Part shown: positions 41,193 to 47,550 of the stretch, in pieces
Layout of the letters: each line of letters opens with the position of its first letter
Position numbering within the stretch: position 1 is the first letter of the stretch
NCBI RefSeq assembly: GCF_000332175.1
Contig: NZ_KB235914.1
Location: 2,476,868 to 2,540,867 of the forward strand
Length of the DNA: 64,000 bases
Reading direction: 5' to 3'
From: Pseudanabaena sp. PCC 6802
GTDB lineage: Bacteria > Cyanobacteriota > Cyanobacteriia > Pseudanabaenales > Pseudanabaenaceae
Notes under the pieces: model-generated
What the model was told of the DNA's origin: nothing
Database searches by the model: none
The model's input: the letters and a program-made list of their open reading frames with translations, nothing else
Translations under genes and position numbers: made by a program

Positions 41193-44100
41193 ATGACTGA
41201 AGGAAGTCGTCCTCCTGGTGGAGACAATAATATTAACGAACAATCTGAAGTTCCTCAACAGGGGAAAGAACCGGAAGGGGGACCATTTGCCCGAGAACTA
41301 GCATTTTTAGAAGAGCGTTTTGCCACCCTTGAACCTAAACCTCTGGAGGGGAGTATTGTCGAACCCAGACCACCTGTTTCTTCTCCTGAAGAAGAGCTCG
41401 ACAGGCTTCGTGCAAGCAGCACATTACCGGCAGACTTTCGCCGCAATTTAGTGGAACAATATCGTCAGCGTCAGCGACAGAAACTGGCAGCAGAAGGCAT
41501 ATCTACAGGTGAAGAAGGTGAAGGGCGGGCAGACACTGAAGAACCAGTGGAAGAAGAACCTGAGCCGCCACCCCCAACTCCACCCGCGCCACCACCTGCC
41601 AATAACTGGATTCCCATTGGACCGTCCGTTTTGCGACAAGGTCAGGGCGGTGTCAAGCCAGCTACCAGTGGACGGACACCAGCGATCGCTGTGGCTCCCG
41701 GTGGCACACGCATTTATATTGGTGCAGCAAATGGAGGAGTGTGGTACTCGGAGGATACAGGACAGACATGGCGTTCCTTAATGGATGCCTTTGACCTCAA
41801 CCCCACCCAAACTGCGTCAGATTCACTTGCCTGTGGTGCGATTGCCTTAGTTCCTGGTACTACCTCCAGCCAGGATCGTCTCTATGTAGGATCTGGTGAG
41901 GGGGCAGGAGGCGCTTACTTTGGAGTTGGACCACTAATTTCAACTGATGGTGGTATCAACTGGAGCACTGAATCAGCCAACCCCGACCTTGCTGGCAGTG
42001 CTTTTTATGCCCTGGCAGTCGACCCAGGAGATGCGGAGCGGGTTATAGCAGCCACGCGTAGGGGTGTCTATCGACGTGAACCAAATAGCAGTGGTGGCGT
42101 TCACTGGATGCGAAAAACTCTTCCTAGTGCAGGATCTACTTGGGCAACTAGTGTCGTAGTCGCTCGCAGCGGTGGCATAACCACTTTCTATACAGCAGTG
42201 TGGTATGGACCAGTCTATTCATCTACTGATGGGGATACCTGGAACAGCGTAGGAAGTAGCTTTCCCACTGCAAACGTGGGACGTATTGGTCTGGCAGTTC
42301 AACCGAATAACCCTAACGTTTTGTATGCTTTGATTGAAAATTCAAGCGATCGTTCTATTTTGGGTGTTTGGCGACTGGATATAAGTGACAACACCTGGAG
42401 ACAAATCAGTGGATACCCAACCGATCTTTTTGGAACGGCTGCGATCGGCTTTCAAGGATCGTATGACTTAGCAATTGCTGTCGACCCTAACAATGCAAAT
42501 CGTCTCTACCTTGGTGGTTCTACTAAACAGTCAAGTGGTGAATGGTCAGGTTCTCTCTATCGGAGTGTCGTAACCAGCAGTGGGTCGGGTGCAAGTCTAA
42601 CCTATAGCATGTCCAATACCTACATCGGTGGCTCGGTGCACGCTGACATCCACACCCTTGTCTTTGCTCCAGGTGACTCCGATAAGCTCTGGGTTGGCTG
42701 CGATGGAGGGGTCTTTTACTCTACTACCCCCACAACAGGCACAGGAAACATCTTTACTTCGTGCAATACCGGACTGGCTACACTCACTATGGAACATCTA
42801 GATCAGCATCCCACTGAAGATGCAGTGGTCTTTTGCGGTTCCCAAGACAATGGTGGCGAACGCTTTACTGGCGAAGAAGTCTGGCTGCACTCAGTTTGGG
42901 GCGATAGTGGCTTTTTTGTGGTCAACTGGAACGCACCATACAAAATATTGAGTACTTATGTCCGTTCATCAATTAACCGCTCCATTGATGGAGGTACACG
43001 TTATAACTACAACGAAGTGGGTGTGACACTAGCAAGTGGAGAAACTGTTCTTTTCTACGCGCCAATTGCAGGTACACCGCACAATCCGAGCAATCCCAGT
43101 GAGGCTGACATTGTTGCATTTGGGTCGATTCGTCCCTGGATCAGTACAACTTTCGGGGGCGGTTGGCAGTCTATCCCCAACAACACTCTGGCAGGTGATA
43201 GCCTAAATGAAAGGATTCGCTCTTTAGCATTTGCTTCTGCTACTAAACTTTATGCTGGCACCATGAGCGGTGGGGTCTATCGTTTTGAACAAAGTGGCGG
43301 AACCTGGACGCGCACTCAAATTAATACGCTAGGGGGAACTAGTTCCTTGCCTCTGACTGTCCCCGTGACCGATATTGCCATCGATCTAGCGGATGCCACA
43401 GGCAACTCCATCTACATCACCTTTGGTGGTATCGGTGACTACCGCCATGTTTGGCATTTTGATGGCACTCAGTGGCAGCAGCGTAGTGGTCCTGCTGCGG
43501 GCAATCCCAATAGCCTTCTGGCCGTGCAAGCCAATGCAATTGTGGTCGATCCAGCCAACACCAGCCATATCTATGTGGGTGCAGATATTGGCATCTGGCG
43601 TTCCACCGATGGAGGGGCAAACTGGTCAACCTTTTCAGAAGGCTTACCCGATGCAGCCGTCATCGATATGAAATTACACGCCGATCGCCGTCTGTTACGG
43701 GCATCCACCCACGGTCGTGGCGTTTTTGAACGCACATTAGATGCGTTGCCCAAGCTAGGGATAGAACTTTATGTACGGGATACTCAACTCGACCAAGGTC
43801 GTTTTCCAACTGTGAATTACCTGCCCGATCCAACCCAACAGGGAGAAGTCGTTCGCTTCTGGCGGGGGCCTGACATTAAATTGGATACACCAGATGCATC
43901 GGGACAGTATCAGTTTCCCCTAACGGGAACCATTGATCTCTTGCAATTTGTTGACACGCTCACAGATGACTTCCAAAATGTGGCAACTCACGCCACAGCA
44001 ACGATTACTACTCGCGTCTATGTTCAGGTTCACAACCGTGGTGTGATACCCGCAGATAACGTGAGAGTCATGTTGTTGATCGCCAATGCTTCAGCGGGAT

Positions 44101-45371
44101 TGCCTGCTTTGCCTGCCAATTATTGGGTTGATGTCCAAAATGGCACCGCGATCGATACAGCTGATTGGAAAACCGTTGGCATCACAACCCTCAATGGTGT
44201 CCGCGTAGGCTTTCCCAAGATTGCTGCATTCAATTTAACGTCTGACAAGCTTCCACCCCCTGCAAGTTTGGCGGGCAACCACCACCACTGTGTGCTGGCA
44301 CTCGTTCACCATGTGGACGATCCTTATACTTCTATAGAAACCCATACGGATACAAACAGTCGGCTAGAGCGCAAGGCAGCACACAAGAATTTGACGGTGG
44401 TGGAATTTGTAGGTACGCTGCCCACACCCCCTCCTATCATTGTTCCAGTCCGCATTCACAATGCCTATCTCAACAAAGAGCTAACTACCAACTTAACGAT
44501 CGATCTAAAGGGCTTTCCCGGTCGCTTGCGGCTGTTTATACCACCTTTGAGAACAGCGGGACGTTTAGCGGACCTAGTACAAGGGATGCGCGTGGAGTCC
44601 ACCATTCCACCCTTTCCTAACGAGCCAGTTTATCAATCTCTAGAAGAGACTAAAGTTACGCCCTGGCAATCTTTCCAGCGAGCCATCACCACTTGGCTCA
44701 GAGTGCTGTCTGGACAGTCTATTTCAACTCCAATCTCAGACTTTCAGAGCTGGGCAACACTGCAAAGTAAAGTTCTGACCTCTAACCTGGCTAGTCAACA
44801 TGCCTATAATCCACTTTGGGTGGAACAACGACTAGAGGATATCCGCCAAGCCATTGGATCGGGTGTGATGTTGACGGCAACAGACAGACAACAGATAGCT
44901 TTACATCGAATTGTGATGGAGCCAAATAGCTATCATACTATCTTTCTGGCTATCGATCGCCCAGAGGACACGGAAGTTGGTCAATTTTTTGAGCTTGATA
45001 TCCTGCAAATAGATGAGCGGCGGGAAGAAATTCTCGGTGGGCTAACCACCCGAGTAGCCCTAGTTCCCGATCCTGAGCCAGAACTCTACACCCTCAAACT
45101 GTCGAGCCGCCGCTGCTGGGCGGGAGGGACTGTGATTCAAGCCCAGTTTTTCAATCTCGACGGTCAACTGATGACCCCAAATGACGGCGTAACCGTGAGA
45201 CTAATGCTTAGGAACGCATCCAACCCAGTTAGGAGGTTGGAGGATATGCGTTATGACATGGCTTCGCGTTCATTCAGATATTACCTATGTAAAAGAACCA
45301 AAACAGAAGAAAAAATTGGTGCAATCGCTTTTGTCAATAGTTCAAAAGTTGCAGAGGCTCAACTGAGCTAA
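41193..45371 (+). CDS. Large BNR/Asp-box beta-propeller protein
   Basis: A 1392-residue protein. Residues 1-140 are charged and disordered, ending in a Pro-rich linker. Residues about 145-850 contain repeated Asp-box motifs (YSEDTGQTWRSL, ISTDGGINWST, YSSTDGDTWNSV, WRSTDGGANWSTFS) and LYVG/LYLGG strands, the pattern of sialidase/sortilin-type propellers. From about residue 860 a different beta-rich region follows (LYVRDTQLDQG..., VQVHNRGVIPADNVRVMLLIAN), resembling immunoglobulin-like modules. No signal peptide is seen, so location is unclear. Enzyme residues of true sialidases were not recognised; a binding or scaffold role is as likely. It precedes the papain-like protease. Confidence 0.85.
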   Translation: MTEGSRPPGGDNNINEQSEVPQQGKEPEGGPFARELAFLEERFATLEPKPLEGSIVEPRPPVSSPEEELDRLRASSTLPADFRRNLVEQYRQRQRQKLAAEGISTGEEGEGRADTEEPVEEEPEPPPPTPPAPPPANNWIPIGPSVLRQGQGGVKPATSGRTPAIAVAPGGTRIYIGAANGGVWYSEDTGQTWRSLMDAFDLNPTQTASDSLACGAIALVPGTTSSQDRLYVGSGEGAGGAYFGVGPLISTDGGINWSTESANPDLAGSAFYALAVDPGDAERVIAATRRGVYRREPNSSGGVHWMRKTLPSAGSTWATSVVVARSGGITTFYTAVWYGPVYSSTDGDTWNSVGSSFPTANVGRIGLAVQPNNPNVLYALIENSSDRSILGVWRLDISDNTWRQISGYPTDLFGTAAIGFQGSYDLAIAVDPNNANRLYLGGSTKQSSGEWSGSLYRSVVTSSGSGASLTYSMSNTYIGGSVHADIHTLVFAPGDSDKLWVGCDGGVFYSTTPTTGTGNIFTSCNTGLATLTMEHLDQHPTEDAVVFCGSQDNGGERFTGEEVWLHSVWGDSGFFVVNWNAPYKILSTYVRSSINRSIDGGTRYNYNEVGVTLASGETVLFYAPIAGTPHNPSNPSEADIVAFGSIRPWISTTFGGGWQSIPNNTLAGDSLNERIRSLAFASATKLYAGTMSGGVYRFEQSGGTWTRTQINTLGGTSSLPLTVPVTDIAIDLADATGNSIYITFGGIGDYRHVWHFDGTQWQQRSGPAAGNPNSLLAVQANAIVVDPANTSHIYVGADIGIWRSTDGGANWSTFSEGLPDAAVIDMKLHADRRLLRASTHGRGVFERTLDALPKLGIELYVRDTQLDQGRFPTVNYLPDPTQQGEVVRFWRGPDIKLDTPDASGQYQFPLTGTIDLLQFVDTLTDDFQNVATHATATITTRVYVQVHNRGVIPADNVRVMLLIANASAGLPALPANYWVDVQNGTAIDTADWKTVGITTLNGVRVGFPKIAAFNLTSDKLPPPASLAGNHHHCVLALVHHVDDPYTSIETHTDTNSRLERKAAHKNLTVVEFVGTLPTPPPIIVPVRIHNAYLNKELTTNLTIDLKGFPGRLRLFIPPLRTAGRLADLVQGMRVESTIPPFPNEPVYQSLEETKVTPWQSFQRAITTWLRVLSGQSISTPISDFQSWATLQSKVLTSNLASQHAYNPLWVEQRLEDIRQAIGSGVMLTATDRQQIALHRIVMEPNSYHTIFLAIDRPEDTEVGQFFELDILQIDERREEILGGLTTRVALVPDPEPELYTLKLSSRRCWAGGTVIQAQFFNLDGQLMTPNDGVTVRLMLRNASNPVRRLEDMRYDMASRSFRYYLCKRTKTEEKIGAIAFVNSSKVAEAQLS

Positions 45372-45560: not shown

Positions 45561-46373
45561 ATGACACGCACAAACAAACGCTATGGATGGGTTCCCGACC
45601 TGCCCGATCATCGAGATCTGCTTTATGCCGCACCGATTACAGCACTGAGAGCTTTACCAGCCAGGGTAGATCTTCGTCCCAATTGTCCTCATATTTACGA
45701 TCAAGAACAGTTGGGCAGTTGCACCGCTAATGCCATTGCTGGAGCGCTTGAGTTCGATCAAATGAAGCAGAAATTGACGGATATTTTTACCCCTTCCCGC
45801 CTGTTTATCTACTACAACGAACGGGTCATGGAAGGGACTGTCAACGAAGATAGTGGTGCGATGATCCGTGATGGCATTAAAAGCGTGGCCAAACAAGGTG
45901 CCTGTCCAGAAGAGCCAACCAAGCAGCATCCAGGACCGGACGGGATCTGGCCCTACGATCCTGATTATGAAATTAATTTTCTTAAAAAACCTACTCCGCA
46001 ATGCTACAACGTTGCGAAAAAACACCAGGCAATTCTCTACAGCAGGCTAGTGCGAAACCTCAATCAGATGAAGGGATGTCTGGCATCCGGCTATCCCTTT
46101 GTCTTTGGGTTCAGTGTTTACGAGAGCTTTGAAAGTCAGGAGGTAGCCAATACGGGTATCGTCCCCATGCCGTCTTCCAACGAACAATTATTGGGTGGGC
46201 ATGCAGTGCTGGCGGTTGGCTATGATGACGAGCAACGCAGATTCATTGTCCGCAACTCTTGGAATACAACCTGGGGCATACAAGGCTACTTTACCATGCC
46301 CTACGCTTATCTATTAGACGAGAACCTGGCTGATGATTTCTGGATGATTCGTCGAGTTGAGGATGAAACTTAA
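45561..46373 (+). CDS. Papain-like cysteine peptidase (C1 family)
   Basis: A 270-residue peptidase. The catalytic triad is visible: Cys54 in EQLGSCTANA with the oxyanion Gln just before (Gln49), His214 in LLGGHAVLAVGYDD, and Asn232 in VRNSWNTTWG. The N-terminus (GWVPDLPDHRD, LPARVDLRPNCP) is the short form found in bacterial C1A members that lack a long propeptide. No signal peptide, so a cytosolic location is likely. AGGAG lies 7 bases before the ATG. A chagasin-type inhibitor gene lies 700 bp downstream on the same strand. Substrate unknown. Confidence 0.93.
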   Translation: MTRTNKRYGWVPDLPDHRDLLYAAPITALRALPARVDLRPNCPHIYDQEQLGSCTANAIAGALEFDQMKQKLTDIFTPSRLFIYYNERVMEGTVNEDSGAMIRDGIKSVAKQGACPEEPTKQHPGPDGIWPYDPDYEINFLKKPTPQCYNVAKKHQAILYSRLVRNLNQMKGCLASGYPFVFGFSVYESFESQEVANTGIVPMPSSNEQLLGGHAVLAVGYDDEQRRFIVRNSWNTTWGIQGYFTMPYAYLLDENLADDFWMIRRVEDET

Positions 46374-47070
46374 GTATACTCAACTTGGTTTTAATCAACT
46401 TTAAGATCCGTTCAAGTTATTTTGAATAACTATCTAATACCAATTCTTCAAAATTGAACTACAGATCGATCTATGTACGGGCGAACGGCTGTTCGCCCCT
46501 CCAGCAATCTGTAATTTCACTTTAGGGAATTGGTGTAAGTCAGTGAGTAAGGCGAAATTGGAGGATACTTCAGACATGAATTGGCTGCTTGCTTTCCTGA
46601 ACTCAAGTTTAGGAGTCGTGTTGACCACATCTAGCTTGGGTGCTATCGGACTGTTCACATAGCAGAGATAGGACTGGATTTTCAAAGAGCGATATCTTCG
46701 AGACAACGCGGACTCTAGACATCTCGCTGGGGCATGTGAGGCTCGAGACAGTGCGGACAAAGCGTATGAGGCAGGGCTTGCGGTTTGCGGAAGCCTGAGA
46801 GCGTGGAATGCGAAAGTCATGGGACAGATCGAAGGTTCTCCATGCATAACTGGCCGCTCCCGGCGGCCAAAAGTGAGACGCGCCTGAGCGGCATGACTTG
46901 AGAGTGCAACAAATTGACCTATTGCATTTCCTCAATTTATGCTAGACTCCCAAACATCAGTTTGCCTCAGGGATCCGATTAAACGCGACTGCTTCATGGG
47001 AAGTAGGAGTGAGTAAGACCATCTGACCTGCTTCCCATCTCTCATTTCTAACTCTAAACTCTAAAATTCT
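46374..47070. other. 697-bp region between the protease and inhibitor genes
   Basis: Contains the palindromic element at 46437-46536. Frames on the minus strand between 46434 and 46935 are Ser/Arg/Cys-rich without motifs, and I do not regard them as genes. The last 100 bp before 47071 is AT/CT-rich. Confidence 0.5.
46437..46536. repeat. Palindromic MITE-like element (ACCAATTC/GAATTGGT ends)
   Basis: The left part from ATACCAATTC to TACAGAT is an imperfect inverted match of the right part from ATCTGTAA to GAATTGGTGT. A perfect central palindrome GGGCGAACGGCTGTTCGCCC (46480-46499) separates them. About 100 bp, non-coding. No second copy seen in the window. Confidence 0.6.
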
Positions 47071-47550
47071 ATGTTTCAACGCAAATCTACTGTCACGGAT
47101 TTAAGTGATTTCAACCTCACTACTGTGTGGTGGTTAGCTTTGGTTCTGGGGGTGCTGCTCATCTGCCTTATAACAAACCCAGCCAATGCATGTGATAGCG
47201 GCTATTCATCAGGAAAGAATTCAGGTATGTCTGAAATTGTAATTTTAGGCAACGATCTCGGAAAAATATTTGAAGCCCGTGTAGGTGATTTAATTGCGAT
47301 CCGTCTCGCAGAAAACCCCACCACTGGCTACTGTTGGGAAATCGGTAGCATTGACGATCGGTTTGTCGAGTTTCAAGGTTCGGACTACTCAAAGACACCC
47401 GAAACAGGCATAGGTGGTGGTGGGACGCGGACATTCCATTTTAGAGCAAAGTCCGGTGGAACGGAACAGATTCAATTCAAGCTGCGACGTTCGTGGGAAC
47501 CGGAAAATAGAGCCATCAAACACTATACCGTCAATATTCGGATTCAGTAA
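47071..47550 (+). CDS. Chagasin-family (I42) cysteine peptidase inhibitor
   Basis: A 159-residue protein. The inhibitory domain covers residues about 55-158 and has the three binding loops of the family: NPTTGYCW (L4 type), the Gly-rich loop GIGGGGTRTF (L2/L6 type), and RSWEPE in place of the common RPW. Such proteins inhibit papain-family cysteine peptidases. From the ATG at 47071 it has a hydrophobic segment (WWLALVLGVLLICLI) and ANAC, suggesting export or a lipoprotein. A second start at 47227 (MSEIVILG) with AGGAAAG upstream would give a cytosolic inhibitor. A papain-like peptidase is encoded just upstream. Confidence 0.88.
   Translation: MFQRKSTVTDLSDFNLTTVWWLALVLGVLLICLITNPANACDSGYSSGKNSGMSEIVILGNDLGKIFEARVGDLIAIRLAENPTTGYCWEIGSIDDRFVEFQGSDYSKTPETGIGGGGTRTFHFRAKSGGTEQIQFKLRRSWEPENRAIKHYTVNIRIQ

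Follow-up and report, generated by a model that had tools for sequence, protein, structure and literature searches.

A papain-type protease gene and a nearby chagasin-family inhibitor gene in a cyanobacterium: a candidate cognate pair within a recurrent gene association

Introduction

When a gene for a chagasin-family (I42) inhibitor follows a gene for a papain-like (C1) protease in a bacterial genome, is the inhibitor made for that protease, or for enzymes of other organisms? The question is raised by two genes on the same strand of a 64,000-nucleotide stretch of Pseudanabaena sp. PCC 6802 DNA, the whole of which we call the window. I42 proteins inhibit C1 enzymes by means of three loops (PMC2607524), and complexes of this kind are listed in PMC7863939. 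The bacterial I42 proteins studied so far have eukaryotic enzymes as their targets (PMC5014320; PMC2784779); bacterial chagasins may inhibit proteases of the bacterium itself or of its host, and in 2009 inhibition had been shown for a eukaryotic enzyme only (PMC2784779). The literature that we searched describes no C1-I42 gene pairs or fusions; Rigden and colleagues (2002) may mention a linkage.

Results

The protease and the inhibitor appear intact

The protease gene (45561..46373, plus strand) encodes 270 amino acids that Pfam and phmmer searches place in the C1A papain family, as a probable member of the xylellain type. Its Pfam Peptidase_C1 match has an E of 9e-15, and xylellain of Xylella fastidiosa (PDB 3ois) aligns with it over residues 3-266, that is, over the full length (phmmer E 9e-78, 265 bits). 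The likeness extends to an N-terminal YGWVPDLPDHRD segment (residues 8-19) also found in xylellain, in which Y8-G9-W10...D13-P15-D16-R18-D19 are invariant across 16 homologues. The initial annotation had read the gene as a C1 peptidase retaining Cys54, His214 and Asn232, and this holds for a complete protease: these three residues, the predicted catalytic ones (codons 45720..45722, 46200..46202 and 46254..46256, plus strand), and Gln48 are unchanged across eight aligned C1 proteins from cyanobacterial pairs and 16 close homologues. A Pfam search returned no I29 prodomain match in the protein, and a hydropathy rule found no signal peptide. The AlphaFold model, built on a shallow alignment (pLDDT 44), was not used. 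Xylellain-like peptidases have an unknown substrate and are predicted by SecretomeP to be released by a non-Sec route (PMC12090721). Xylellain differs from the window case in that the literature searched describes no inhibitor alongside it.

The inhibitor gene (47071..47550, plus strand) encodes 159 amino acids, and the earlier call of an I42 protein about 700 bp downstream of the protease, on the same strand and with NPTTGY, GGGG and RSW loops, is confirmed by profile, loops and predicted fold. The Inhibitor_I42 profile matches with an E of 1e-22 and 80.5 bits, against a curated cut-off of 27.2. By alignment, the three motifs correspond to loops L2 (residues 82-87, 47314..47331), L4 (residues 115-118, 47413..47424) and L6 (residues 140-142, 47488..47496), all on the plus strand. 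A confident AlphaFold model (core pLDDT of about 90) predicts the Ig-like fold of chagasin, with a Z of 14.7 and an rmsd of 2.2 over 105 residues relative to chagasin 2nnr; the top structural matches of the model are chagasin-family proteins, EhICP2 among them with a Z of 15.9. The domain is preceded by a hydrophobic helix (residues 16-34, 47116..47172, plus strand) that may serve as a signal peptide or anchor, then by Cys41 and a Gly/Ser-rich linker. The cysteine closes an ANAC motif (38-41), which does not conform to a canonical lipobox. An internal methionine, Met53 (47227..47229, plus strand), lines up with the first residue of I42 proteins that lack a signal, so the inhibitor may also exist in a second form that stays in the cytosol.

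The two genes are separated by 695 bp (46374..47070), the second loosest spacing among the 33 separate pairs that we collected. Part of this width is owed to a dispersed, partly palindromic repeat of about 105 bp that sits inside the gap (46434..46539) and occurs, nearly complete, about 15 times in the genome; in kind it is MITE- or REP-like. Promoter and terminator matches between the genes occur at chance level only, a sigma-70-like match at 46914-46943 being no commoner than in shuffles. The gap has no Rfam match to an RNA element, and the locus has no PADLOC match to a defence system.

C1 and I42 genes are recurrently adjacent

In the genome of the window (G000, 5.62 Mb), each family has exactly two genes, and all four lie in adjacent C1-I42 pairs; by chance, adjacency to a C1 gene is expected for about 0.14% of I42 genes in this genome, and it was observed twice. 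The second pair (L003, L062; G000:C5:1918489-1919698, minus strand) has the opposite order to that of the window, with a 101-aa I42 protein followed by a 552-aa C1 protein with C-terminal BTRD1 repeats, both signal-less. Elsewhere in this genome, a 648-aa frame has a weak Phage_sheath_1 match (L223, G000:C1:210916-211104), possibly part of a contractile injection system.

A gene-neighbourhood survey, which the initial annotation had proposed, found the two families together well beyond this genome. Among 244 genomes of the cyanobacterial phylum, 16 carry I42 and 40 carry C1, with nine adjacent pairs in seven genomes (9/18 I42 genes). Within the window's class, C1 adjoins nine of the 11 I42 genes above cut-off (twice each in G000 and G237, once each in G153, G097, G074, G103 and G078). 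The two exceptions, in G149 and G155, share the neighbourhood seen in G153 and G103 and have the I42 gene, with the C1 gene absent. These loci (L060, 8275-8718; L061, 1066-1509) have relatives, L053 and L056, in which C1 lies between I42 and a pentapeptide-like gene. An in-frame TGA was noted in one C1 gene (G078; L059, 6742-7491), which is decayed or otherwise interrupted beside an intact adjoining I42 gene.

We extended the survey to five further clades (an order, phyla and a class) of genomes reached via xylellain homologues, scanning 1.5 kb on each side of the I42 genes examined with a C1 profile. C1 was adjacent or fused at 4/8, 12/20, 5/30, 3/30 and 2/26 I42 genes above cut-off (26/114 in sum), a sample mildly biased in that each clade was chosen for a member with a xylellain homologue. 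For the six clades together, C1 is fused in frame or lies no more than 1.5 kb away at 35 of the 132 I42 genes examined, or at 32 of 129 excluding the genome of the window and the seed genome. Set against a generous chance rate of 1%, this gives a P of about 1e-34, which relatedness inflates, and the variety of layouts therefore carries more weight. Outside the cyanobacteria, the 1.5-kb flanks of most I42 genes contain no C1 gene, and the I42 gene of P. congelans, a relative of P. syringae, has no C1 neighbour. On an Acetobacter plasmid, an I42 gene encoding a signal-like N-terminus (L230, 2923-3276) lies among several toxin-antitoxin modules, with no C1 within 3 kb.

Pairs differ in layout and include fusions

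The 38 pairs comprise 24 with C1 first, six with I42 first, three convergent and five fused. Separate partners mostly lie within about 100 bp of each other, the loose ones being L059 (902 bp) and the window pair. Tight pairs also occur beyond the surveyed genomes, in Caballeronia (4-23 bp), in a prophage (L072, 20 bp) and on a Priestia megaterium plasmid (22 bp), where NCBI annotation names both genes. The fusions (L159, L161, L164, L211 and L222) run from a signal peptide through I42 and C1 to a variable C-terminal part; both Pfam domains are above cut-off, and the inhibitor occupies the place where the prodomain normally sits. Scans of the five fusions and of C1 proteins from pairs returned no I29 prodomain match. 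Six other C1 proteins (L106, L108, L128, L129, L136 and L220) carry C-terminal repeats and have an I42 gene directly after; the two tested gave weak DUF346 or FG-GAP-like matches in the repeats.

On the C1 tree, pairing must have been gained or lost five times or more on branches with good support; on the I42 tree it requires 15 changes in all, at least five of them on such branches. In a test, the data were compatible with the I42 partners of core xylellains forming one clade (p 0.23), and we therefore do not claim independent assembly for that group. The differing layouts and C1 subfamilies support separate assembly of pairs, which is not proven for the core xylellains.

The initial annotation had suggested that the two window genes form a self-protection or regulation pair, possibly together with a large BNR propeller protein. 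The pairing draws strong support from a genomic association that reaches far beyond the window and includes the fusions; the lack of co-occurrence elsewhere, which the annotation had named as a refutation, was not borne out. The BNR/sortilin-like protein upstream (1392 aa, window 41193-45371, without a signal peptide) was dropped as a third member, since no homologue stands beside any other pair in the flanking DNA examined.

Predicted compartments agree in some pairs and not in the window

Export was called by a simple hydropathy rule. Both partners appear to be exported at L053, L055 and L056, and neither has a signal at L058, L059, L062, L072, L082 and L095. A signal-less C1 protein accompanies an I42 protein with a signal in the window, at L054 and L057, and at some of L111-L124. 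As the window inhibitor has a signal or anchor and the window protease has none, the pair may not share a compartment; nothing else weakens a simple account of self-protection in the window as much as this discrepancy. Three interpretations could account for it: the protease may leave the cell by a non-Sec route, the two proteins may be an effector and its immunity protein, or the inhibitor may be a shield against proteases of foreign origin.

Discussion

We think it fairly probable that the window genes belong together as an enzyme and its dedicated control, a papain-type protease kept harmless until needed by a cognate inhibitor of the chagasin type; binding, compartment and self-protective role are what we infer. 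Loops L2, L4 and L6 would wedge into the active-site cleft of the C1 enzyme, as those of chagasin do with papain and cathepsin L, and would so protect the producing cell until the enzyme is outside or its activity is called for. The window inhibitor, probably exported or anchored in the membrane, may guard the periplasm or cell surface; the window protease may be kept latent by an N-terminal segment of its own and reach the outside through lysis or a non-Sec route. A cognate pair is favoured by the two-of-two adjacency in G000, the adjacency in the survey, the varied gene orders, the fusions and the tight pairs elsewhere, as well as by intact loops, catalytic residues and predicted inhibitor fold and by agreement of compartments in many other pairs. 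Against it stand the closest protease (L074), from another cyanobacterium and 85% identical, which lacks an adjacent I42 gene and whose genome has its I42 elsewhere, and 21 of 23 close xylellain homologues without I42 in their flanks (4 kb where the contig allowed), together with the wide gap, the export mismatch, the I42 genes kept without C1 in G149 and G155, and the unpaired majority of non-cyanobacterial I42 genes. Given the gap, L074 and the unpaired homologues, the window is best seen as one loose case of a general, mostly tight association; the pair reading is well supported in general and moderately supported at the window locus.

The alternative that weighs most, unlikely as we judge it, is that the window inhibitor protects in a general way against papain-like proteases from outside, such as those of grazing protists, other bacteria or phage, and that its adjacency to C1 is incidental. 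Its exported form and the loose gap would suit such a role, as would a promoter-like match before the inhibitor gene, itself at chance level, the many I42 genes without a C1 neighbour, and the precedent of Cip1 from Pseudomonas syringae, which inhibits secreted tomato proteases (PMC5014320). An incidental neighbour is, however, hard to square with both G000 pairs, the nine pairs of the phylum and the fusions. Pure chance, to which the loose gap and the patchy pairing among close C1 homologues might point, is scarcely credible in view of the low expectation per I42 gene in G000 and the general association.

Two further readings accept a functional link between the genes. The signal-less protease could be an antibacterial effector, carried into the periplasm of kin by a contractile system or some other non-Sec route, with the exported inhibitor as its immunity protein. 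Polymorphic toxins are known to include papain-fold toxin domains (PMC3482391), the combination of signal-less C1 and exported I42 recurs at L054 and L057 and at some of L111-L124 (by the hydropathy rule only), the inhibitor is retained at loci whose protease gene is missing or interrupted (L060, L061, L059), and G000 has a weak sheath-like gene. That match, however, falls short of the cut-off and comes from a different contig, the locus has no recognised delivery gene or marker domain, and in many pairs neither partner has a signal, which leaves this arrangement decidedly improbable. We give still less credence to the idea that I42 acts as a prodomain in trans, and in cis in the fusions, holding the zymogen during folding and export and then being removed. 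The five fusions, with the inhibitor in prodomain position, and the missing I29 matches in the scanned C1 proteins, paired or fused, are what such a role would leave behind, but a xylellain-type C1 protein already has its own conserved N-terminal segment, and convergent layouts and orphan I42 genes need no co-translation.

For the cognate-pair reading, the association means that a good share of bacterial chagasins have a specific partner protease, encoded by the neighbouring gene or carried in the same polypeptide, a concrete and testable answer to what they act on, and it gives a rule by which to guess the partner of unannotated I42 proteins. It suggests that the proteases held in check by bacterial chagasins are often those of the cell itself and not just those of a host, and that papain-like enzymes have a second kind of prodomain. 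We would go further only as a speculation that we ourselves doubt: that chagasin is widely used in bacteria as a detachable prodomain, with I42, fused upstream or encoded next door, as the latency device of papain-like proteases that lack I29, and that modules of this kind gave rise to the free inhibitors of protozoa and pathogens.

We rate genetically linked C1-I42 pairs as a variant of the known theme of a protease with a linked inhibitor. Staphopain and staphostatin genes are linked in an operon, and staphostatin is a cytosolic inhibitor. This system of Staphylococcus aureus (I57 with C47) likewise joins a secreted bacterial papain-fold protease to a dedicated endogenous inhibitor (PMC7863939), and differs in its unrelated inhibitor fold, its other protease family and its substrate-like rather than three-loop binding. 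Chagasin and cruzipain of Trypanosoma cruzi belong to the same families, I42 and C1A, and the inhibitor, with L2, L4 and L6 kept, is made by the same cell whose papain-like enzyme it blocks; here, by contrast, the setting is bacterial, the genes are linked or fused, the inhibitor is often exported by our calls, and the protease is of the xylellain type without an I29 match. Cip1 of Pseudomonas syringae and ICP of P. aeruginosa are exported bacterial I42 proteins, as the window inhibitor probably is, and have NPTTG, GxGG and R-x-W loops as it does, and they differ in having been studied as inhibitors of eukaryotic enzymes.
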